From: Flavobacteriaceae bacterium
Lineage (GTDB): Bacteria; Bacteroidota; Bacteroidia; Flavobacteriales; Flavobacteriaceae
DNA: 49,038 bases
Assembly (NCBI GenBank): GCA_947461795.1
Contig: CANHMG010000007.1
Location: 1-49,038 of the forward strand
Direction: 5' to 3'
Positions 1 to 42,277 of the stretch are shown here, piece after piece. Every line of letters begins with the position of its first letter. Position 1 is the stretch's first letter. The translations under genes and the position numbers were made by a program. The notes beneath the pieces are model-generated. The model saw only the letters and a list, made by a program, of their open reading frames with translations, searched no databases and had not been told where the DNA came from.

Positions 1-109
1 CTTAAGGTGGTTATTGCGGCGGGGCTCACCTCTTCCCATCCCGAACAGAGAAGTTAAGCCCGCCTGCGCAGATGGTACTGCAATTTGTGGGAGAGTATGT
101 CGTCGCCTT
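1..109 (+). rRNA. rrf: 5S ribosomal RNA (5' end at or just before the window edge)
   Basis: The sequence carries the conserved 5S core, including CCCATCCCGAACAGAGAAG (loop B/C region), followed by GATGGTACTGC and GGGAGAGTA. The end GTCGTCGCC pairs with the beginning GGTGGTTAT to close helix I. The length of about 109 nt fits a Bacteroidota 5S; at most a few 5' bases are missing. It is the last gene of an rRNA operon entering from the left, and the terminator array follows directly. Confidence 0.95.
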
Positions 110-117
110 TTTTAGAG

Positions 118-151
118 AACCCCAGCTTGAAAAAGCTGGGGTTTTTGTTTT
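118..151 (+). terminator. rrn terminator 1
   Basis: The stem CCCCAGCTT (120-128), loop GAAA and AAGCTGGGG (133-141) is followed by TTTTTGTTTTT. It is a perfect 9-bp stem on a GNRA-type tetraloop, a textbook Rho-independent terminator just after 5S. Confidence 0.92.
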
Positions 152-200
152 TATTGGAGCGACGCTGTCGGCTAAAGCCTCAAGTCGTCGCCTTTTTAAG

Positions 201-237
201 AAAAACCCGTTGTGAAAACAACGGGTTTTTTGTTTTT
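201..237 (+). terminator. rrn terminator 2
   Basis: The stem CCCGTTGT (206-213), loop GAAA and ACAACGGG (218-225) is extended by an A-run/T-run pairing and followed by TTTTTTGTTTTT. The stem sequence is unrelated to terminator 1, but it sits at the same offset in the 85-bp unit. Confidence 0.9.
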
Positions 238-287
238 ATCGGTACGACGTGTTCGCCTAGCGGCTCGGTTCGTCGCCTTTTTTAGAG

Positions 288-322
288 AACCCCAACCTGT
301 AAAGGTTGGGGTTTTTGTTTTT
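288..322 (+). terminator. rrn terminator 3
   Basis: The stem CCCCAACCT (290-298), loop GTAA (again GNRA) and AGGTTGGGG (303-311) is followed by TTTTTGTTTTTG. It is the third consecutive terminator of the array. Confidence 0.9.
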
Positions 323-3635: not shown

Positions 3636-3716
3636 TTTAGGAGCTGGTTCCCGCTGTCCATTATATCTTTGCCGACGAACGCCGCCGCCAAAGGATGCCA
3701 TTGCCATCGGGGCTAG
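3636..3716 (-). repeat. Hairpin element family 1, copy R1
   Basis: It contains TTAGGAGC ... CCCGCTGTCC ... ATCTTTG ... CAAAGGATGCC ... ATCGGGGCTAG, the reverse-orientation form of the element seen again near 22.05, 28.4, 30.1 and 42.2 kb. The apical stem here is short (CTTTG 3667-3671, CAAAG 3689-3693) with a GC-rich loop, so this is the most degenerate copy. Confidence 0.75.
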
Positions 3717-3757
3717 TGGCATAGGTAGTTAATCCTATTCTCGAATGAAAACGTATA

Positions 3758-22017: not shown

Positions 22018-22051
22018 AAAAGCCCAATACGTGATGGTGTCGGGTTTTTTT
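22018..22051 (+). terminator. Terminator after the NupG-like gene
   Basis: AAAGCCCAATAC and GTGTCGGGTTTT pair imperfectly around a short loop, followed by a T-run that directly adjoins repeat R2. Confidence 0.65.
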
Positions 22052-22052
22052 T

Positions 22053-22131
22053 AGCCCCGATAGTAGCGGTTATCCTTTTGCGACGGCGTTCGGCGCAAAA
22101 GATTAGAGCGTATAGCGGGAATTGCTCCTAA
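22053..22131 (+). repeat. Hairpin element family 1, copy R2
   Basis: AGCCCCGATAGTAGCGG ... ATCC, then the apical stem CTTTTGCG (22075-22082) with CGCAAAAG (22094-22101), then GAGCGTATAGCGGGAATTGC and TCCTA. The outer AGC-CCC and GGG-GCT segments can close the element. Confidence 0.88.
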
Positions 22132-28387: not shown

Positions 28388-28500
28388 AAGGAGCTGATTG
28401 CTTCGTCTGTTCGCTCTTTAGGAGCACGGGTCCCGCTATCCGCTATATCTTTTGCTGGCTAAAGAAGCCAGCAAAAGGATGCCGCTGTTATCGGGGCTAG
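28388..28500 (-). repeat. Hairpin element family 1, copy R3 (with a duplicated end)
   Basis: In reverse orientation: AGGAGC ... GGGTCCCGCTATCCGCTATA, then the apical stem CTTTTGCTGGCT (28449-28460), loop AAAGA and AGCCAGCAAAAG (28466-28477, perfect 12 bp), then GATGCCGCTG and ATCGGGGCTAG. A second AAGGAGC end with CTTCGTCTGTTCGCTC is attached at 28388-28416, as if another repeat had joined the element. Confidence 0.88.
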
Positions 28501-28520
28501 AGAAACAAACAACCCTCAAC

Positions 28521-30117: not shown

Positions 30118-30137
30118 CGTTCAGCGTATGCGGAAAC

Positions 30138-30247
30138 CCTAGCCCCGATTGCAGCGGTTATCCTTTTGTGCTGCAGATATGCCCCTCGACTGCGCTCGGG
30201 GTGACAAGCACAAAAGATAATAGCGTAAAGCGGGAAATAGCTCTTAA
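30138..30247 (+). repeat. Hairpin element family 1, copy R4, carrying a nested family 2 arm
   Basis: CTAGCCCCGATTGCAGCGG ... ATCC, then the apical stem CTTTTGTGCT (30163-30172) with AGCACAAAAG (30207-30216), then ATAATAGCGTAAAGCGGGAA and ATAGCTCTTA. The loop between the two stem arms contains GCCCCTCGACTGCGCTCGGG plus GTGACAA, a left arm of palindromic family 2. Confidence 0.9.
30181..30206 (+). repeat. Palindromic family 2, lone left arm nested in R4
   Basis: GCCCCTCGACTGCGCTCGGG plus GTGACA matches the left arms at 3802 and 4212 except GGAGAC is GGTGAC. It sits inside the loop of the R4 hairpin. Confidence 0.88.
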
Positions 30248-42108: not shown

Positions 42109-42163
42109 TTGAATTTTGGTATAGCAGCATTTCACATTAAGTTGCGAAGATACGGAGTTTATC

Positions 42164-42277
42164 TCTAGCCCCGATAGTAACGGAAATCCTTTTGTGTTTT
42201 ATAAAAGTCACTTGACAGTGCATGCGACGACAAAAAACACAAAAGATTGGAGTGGATAGCGGGAATAAGCTCCTAAA
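42164..42277 (+). repeat. Hairpin element family 1, copy R5
   Basis: CTAGCCCCGATAGTAACGG ... ATCC, then the apical stem CTTTTGTGTTTT (42189-42200) with AAAACACAAAAG (42234-42245, perfect 12 bp), then ATTGGAGTGGATAGCGGGAA and TAAGCTCCTAA. It lies between the divergent NYN and alpha-oxoamine synthase genes, upstream of both. Confidence 0.9.

Follow-up and report, generated by a model that had tools for sequence, protein, structure and literature searches.

A variable array of tandem terminators and 5S-end copies at rRNA operon ends in Flavobacterium

Introduction

Why should an rRNA operon end in three terminators of different sequence, equally spaced and separated by copies of the last few bases of the 5S rRNA gene? 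Tandem intrinsic terminators are a familiar way of ending rRNA operons, as in T1 and T2 of Escherichia coli rrnB. In the locus studied here, each terminator beyond the first comes as part of a longer repeated unit. A sequence-only reading of this DNA saw in these units a strict 85-nt period and stems that change while still pairing; it proposed selection on RNA structure in each unit, and either a processed small RNA or a staged termination and processing device. We found no prior account of such a 5S-end array in the open-access literature searched, nor any paper there combining Flavobacterium with Term-seq.

We therefore ask what the array consists of, how it varies between rRNA (rrn) operons and between species, and which processes could have kept its stems paired. 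Our starting point, referred to as the window, is a stretch of 49,038 nucleotides from a Flavobacteriaceae bacterium, which forms the first contig end of a draft assembly. Many of the loci compared with it also come from metagenome assemblies, and similar arrays are found in isolates and complete genomes; Myroides guanonis DSM 26542 and Flavobacterium macacae are two cultured species that have one.

Results

Anatomy of the array

The window starts two bases upstream of a 5S rRNA gene on the forward strand (positions 3-111; Rfam RF00001, 82 bits). The last helix strand of this gene, CGTCGCC at 101-107, forms the 3' side of the 5S terminal helix, and six T residues come after it at 108-113. The same word followed by five or six T residues recurs at 186 and 271, so that one instance lies within the 5S gene and two are downstream copies. 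A repeat search places the starts of the repeat copies at 99, 184 and 269, in register, with spacings of 85 and 85. A second CGTCGCCTTTTT appeared in the downstream segment in one of 20,000 shuffles.

Three terminators follow the 5S gene on the forward strand, each with GTTTTT after its stem: terminator 1 at 115-146 (stem core CCCCAGCTT/AAGCTGGGG), terminator 2 at 200-231 (CCCGTTGT/ACAACGGG) and terminator 3 at 285-316 (CCCCAACCT/AGGTTGGGG), which closes the array. All are perfect hairpins with 14-bp GC-rich stems and T-tails, arranged in tandem on the same strand directly 3' of the 5S gene, and the terminator scan yields four terminator-like sites where shuffles predict 0.7.

Between successive terminators lies a second kind of hairpin. 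Linker hairpin 1 (153-198, forward strand) is composed of GGAGCGACG at 156-164, a loop containing a GGC/GCC mini-hairpin, the copied 5S strand CGTCGCC at 186-192, and five T residues. It scores 49.4 bits against R1, a covariance model of the linker built from pattern-selected sequences, and has a predicted folding energy of -15.9 kcal/mol (z -2.4). Linker hairpin 2 (238-283, forward strand) has the same form, with GGTACGACG at 241-249, a GCC/GGC mini-hairpin in the loop, the second copy of the 5S strand at 271-277 and six T residues; it scores 64.7 bits, and its predicted fold includes the CGACG/CGTCG stem, with a stability no better than that of shuffles. That is, each linker is closed by CGACG paired with CGTCG (160-164 with 186-190, and 245-249 with 271-275) around a small GCC/GGC hairpin. 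An added unit therefore reads, in order, as a copy of the 5S 3' strand with its T-run, a GC-rich terminator hairpin, and the 5' arm and loop of the next linker hairpin. The sequence-only reading was right about the repeat positions (101, 186 and 271), the three perfect stems with their sequences, and the pairing of an arm with the start of the next unit, which we see at both linkers.

As a whole, the array region is predicted to fold much more stably than shuffles (z -6.8). The same scan found no promoter-like site inside the array and none before position 397, and the Rfam search returned no family above its cut-off other than 5S. We rejected the idea of a duplicated or pseudo 5S gene, since Rfam detects one 5S only and the homology among the repeats begins at the 3' strand.

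Just beyond the array, at 327-404, lies an inverted repeat (TTCAAAATTTAACGTTC...GAACGTTGAAG) that is also found after the single terminator of another rrn end of this genome (L003) and elsewhere in the genome (L005).

Copy number and spacing vary between rrn ends

At the other two rrn ends of the same genome (L002 and L003), the 5S gene is followed by a single terminator and its end is not copied. Of 61 Flavobacterium rrn ends taken without selection, 17 have at least one downstream copy, where shuffling predicts 0.6 hits in all, and 44 have no intact copy. The number of terminators and copies differs between operons of one genome, and it differs at a single locus as well: where relatives share the sequence downstream of this rrn operon, the window has three terminators and each of three relatives (L107, L154 and L155) has two.

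Spacing is also variable. Copies mostly lie 78-99 nt apart, with outliers at 62-67 and 104-218; within one genome some arrays are regular (L123, for instance, with spacings of 88, 88 and 88), and others are irregular. We therefore reject a strict 85-nt period: the equal spacing of 85 is confined to the window array, with values from 62 to 218 elsewhere. The comparison of rrn ends that the sequence-only reading had proposed thus went largely against it at the level of DNA, in that two of the three rrn ends of the genome lack an array and unit lengths vary.

At one rrn end of genome G022 (L053, about 153-770), an insertion resembling by eye a group II intron lies right after the first terminator, at the point where the sister operons continue with array units.

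Terminator stems look like exchanged modules

Each of the three stems of the window is present once in its own genome, and on this ground we rejected genome-wide terminator families as their source. In arrays of other species, by contrast, the stems are reused whole: within the set examined, and counting the window, CCCCAGCTT occurs ten times, CCCGTTGT four times and CCCCAACCT three times. At the same rrn locus in relatives the terminator stems are reshuffled. The second linker of the window lies downstream of the CCCGTTGT terminator here, and upstream of the same terminator in another array (L142).

The recurrence of whole stems in other species, together with their reshuffling at the same locus, points to exchange of modules rather than stepwise compensation. 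What had been taken for compensatory change in the terminator stems looks like whole-module exchange between rrn ends, and its stepwise version is unsupported. A general caution follows: differing stems that all pair within a tandem array may be swapped modules, and are no proof of stepwise compensation.

The linker hairpin is found at 5S ends

Pattern and model searches of the window's own genome find R1 in the two window units only. In five complete or near-complete genomes (G010, G022, G036, G360 and G354), all 25 of 25 R1 matches lie at 5S ends, within about 310 nt downstream; in draft genomes the matches examined adjoin 5S genes or contig ends, where rrn operons break assemblies. The hairpin occurs in 30 of 150 sampled Flavobacterium genomes, a count that is probably too low, given that rrn ends go missing from drafts, and R1 found none in about 199 other genera of the family, sampled at one genome each.

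These results led us to reject a dispersed mobile palindrome or REP-type repeat, as the full hairpin occurs only at 5S ends and the other matches in the genome proved unrelated on inspection. The sole dispersed part of the hairpin is the loop word GTTCG..CTCGG. A mini-hairpin of the form CAGTTCG, short stem, CTCGGGT is scattered through the window's genome (L169-L198), often nested in larger intergenic repeats, and it also sits inside terminator loops at three other loci (L057, L058 and L111). The loop of the linker hairpin is similar to its core, which suggests that loops may be swapped with this mini-hairpin.

The arms of the linker hairpin co-vary

In contrast to the terminator stems, the linker stem does show compensatory change across species. 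We scanned 85,462 species genomes for a 5S end, a facing arm and a second 5S-like end, leaving two variable positions per arm free; the pattern required GG and CC stem ends, and hence we make no claim of conservation for those ends. The scan returned 67 loci, nearly all in Flavobacterium. At 63 of the 67, the copy and the adjacent host 5S end carry the same variable dinucleotide, in three versions (TC, CC and CT), and the facing arm carries GA, GG or AG to match (GA/TC 25, GG/CC 14, AG/CT 8).

Flavobacterium-type 5S ends with arrays also lie on contigs binned as Sphingobacterium, Chitinophaga, Chryseobacterium, Rhizobium or Lentimicrobium (L121, L128, L136, L138, L158 and L161), which are probably misbinned or mislabelled.

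Over 39 sequences, pairing between the arms stands at 97.8%, versus 92.7% when shuffled, and the cells in which both sides have changed number 24, versus 7.9. A stratified permutation, in which copies were permuted within loop classes over 91 units including the later units of each array, gives 33.7 ± 3.3 units expected to have an upstream arm complementary to their own copy; the observed number is 55, and none of 20,000 permutations was as high, although this test, like the pair counts, leaves shared ancestry in. Since neither removes shared ancestry, we built a tree of the Lon proteins from 28 genomes that have an array. On this tree the arm-pair types need seven changes in total, and well-supported branches force three for each of GA/TC, GG/CC and AG/CT. 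The rarest pair, AG/CT, appears in three separate places (G018; G287 with G293 and G322; and G315), and the sister of the last, G349, carries GG/TC, a G-U intermediate. The claim that pairing in the linker is kept through compensatory change thus holds up across species.

If such change reflected selection on the transcribed strand, its strand-specific sign would be an excess of G-U over A-C among one-sided arm changes. That sign is absent: there are 8 G-U changes and 7 A-C changes, which lend no support to selection on the transcribed strand, and such selection is not demonstrated. Pairing is not universal either. In F. saccharophilum, F. cupreum and a metagenome contig labelled Salinimicrobium, the copy has no complementary 5' arm and adjoins a palindrome of the type CCCCGATAGYTATCGGGG.

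Discussion

What, then, is the array for? We think it probable, judging from sequence comparison, that it is a tandem intrinsic terminator array closing the rRNA operon, whose units are exchanged by recombination and kept like the host 5S end. Polymerases that pass terminator 1 would meet terminators 2 and 3. Units would be gained, lost and swapped through recombination between the repeated 5S-end and terminator segments of several rrn operons, and the same recombination would keep each copy identical to the host 5S end. When the 3' arm changes, the 5' arm of the linker would follow, so that pairing is kept. The linker hairpin itself may act as a weaker, additional stem with a U-run, or may shield the copied 5S end from the 5' strand of the real 5S; mispairing of this kind appears in the predicted fold of the whole transcript. 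Seen in about a fifth of Flavobacterium species, it is most likely a fail-safe array that grows and shrinks, and not a new small RNA.

Several observations favour a terminator array: three canonical hairpins with T-tails right after the 5S gene and no promoter-like site among them; linker matches that sit at 5S ends in 25 of 25 cases in the complete or near-complete genomes; copy number that varies between operons and at the same locus among relatives, with reshuffled modules; and a copy that agrees with the host 5S end at 63 of 67 loci, with the 5' arm following it through repeated changes on the Lon tree. It must be weighed against these that most rrn ends of the genus manage with one good terminator (44 of 61 have no intact copy), that the linker stem of 5-7 bp with a large loop is weak as a terminator, that the complementary arm is missing beside the copy in several arrays, among them those of F. 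saccharophilum and F. cupreum, and that G-U changes are in no excess over A-C.

The last point would be expected if the stems were maintained at the level of DNA. Template switching during replication is documented to create and repair hairpin stems, producing multi-base compensatory changes without stepwise selection (PMC8794818); those stems share whole-stem compensatory changes with ours, although they are documented in reconstructed histories of RNA genes and not in 5S-end arrays. The array could then be a mutational by-product that expands by slippage or recombination and whose linker stems are kept perfect by such quasi-palindrome correction, while whatever lies past the first terminator would do little. 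The highly variable copy number, the lack of an array at most rrn ends and the movement of terminator modules as wholes agree with this. On the other hand, pure decay would erode the hairpins, whereas roughly one-fifth of the genus has them at the same site with their architecture kept (loop mini-hairpin, T-run and strong terminator), and we judge a by-product possible but unlikely. On the narrower question of the linker, its compensatory change may stem from RNA selection or from DNA template switching; both fit.

The close match to the host 5S end admits a further interpretation, in which the linker hairpin is a mimic of the 5S terminal helix, sharing its GG...CC end, its 3' strand and its T-run. 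The enzyme responsible for 5S 3'-end maturation would then cleave the mimic, and read-through transcripts would be cut up one unit at a time. In favour of this, the 3' arm tracks the host 5S end in all three versions (63 of 67 loci), and the hairpin is confined to the vicinity of 5S genes; the same match would, however, result from concerted recombination with the neighbouring 5S end, and some copies have no complementary arm. We consider this cleavage very unlikely. Slightly better odds, though still long ones, attach to the broader proposal of a functional mimic re-tuned whenever the host 5S end changes, which would recruit a 5S-maturation nuclease or protect the 5S fold and make the array a staged termination and processing device specific to Flavobacterium rrn operons. 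Least credible of all is the idea that the 85-nt units are each processed as regulatory small RNAs. The units are repeated and structured, as the z of the region attests, but their terminator stems and loops are freely swapped, the array is missing at most rrn ends, and, with neither an internal promoter-like site nor an Rfam match above the cut-off beyond 5S, they are very unlikely to be small RNAs.

Among known systems, the array is like E. coli rrnB T1/T2 in placing at least two GC-rich hairpins with U-runs directly after the last rRNA gene, but here a copy of the 5S 3' strand, held within a second hairpin, comes before every additional terminator, operons have from none to several copies, and units are shared across species as modules. 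REP and REPIN-type repeats are dispersed palindromes; the linker hairpin resembles them as a short, imperfect palindrome with co-varying arms and a loop like the dispersed Flavobacterium mini-hairpin, but the complete hairpin is found only at 5S ends. A truncated or duplicated 5S gene would likewise carry a 5S 3' end and T-run, whereas here about 7 nt of the 5S and the T-run are copied, and no 5S domain is detected in the array.

The array offers a natural system, within a single genus, in which a copied 5S 3' end would change by recombination and the short arm opposite it has repeatedly changed to match. It makes testable whether compensation in RNA stems reflects selection on RNA or template switching in DNA. 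It also accounts for variable repeats at rrn ends that may break assemblies.

Two further features of the window deserve mention. A stretch just after the array, at about 507-750, looks interrupted and has its homologue in the gene that lies downstream of this rrn locus in two relatives (L107 and L155); after it comes, at 886-1551, an intact small gene of similar, lipoprotein-like type. Finally, the 49-kb window contains five Flavo-1 RNAs (RF01705), at 3643-3718, 22049-22126, 28425-28502, 30137-30241 and 42163-42270.
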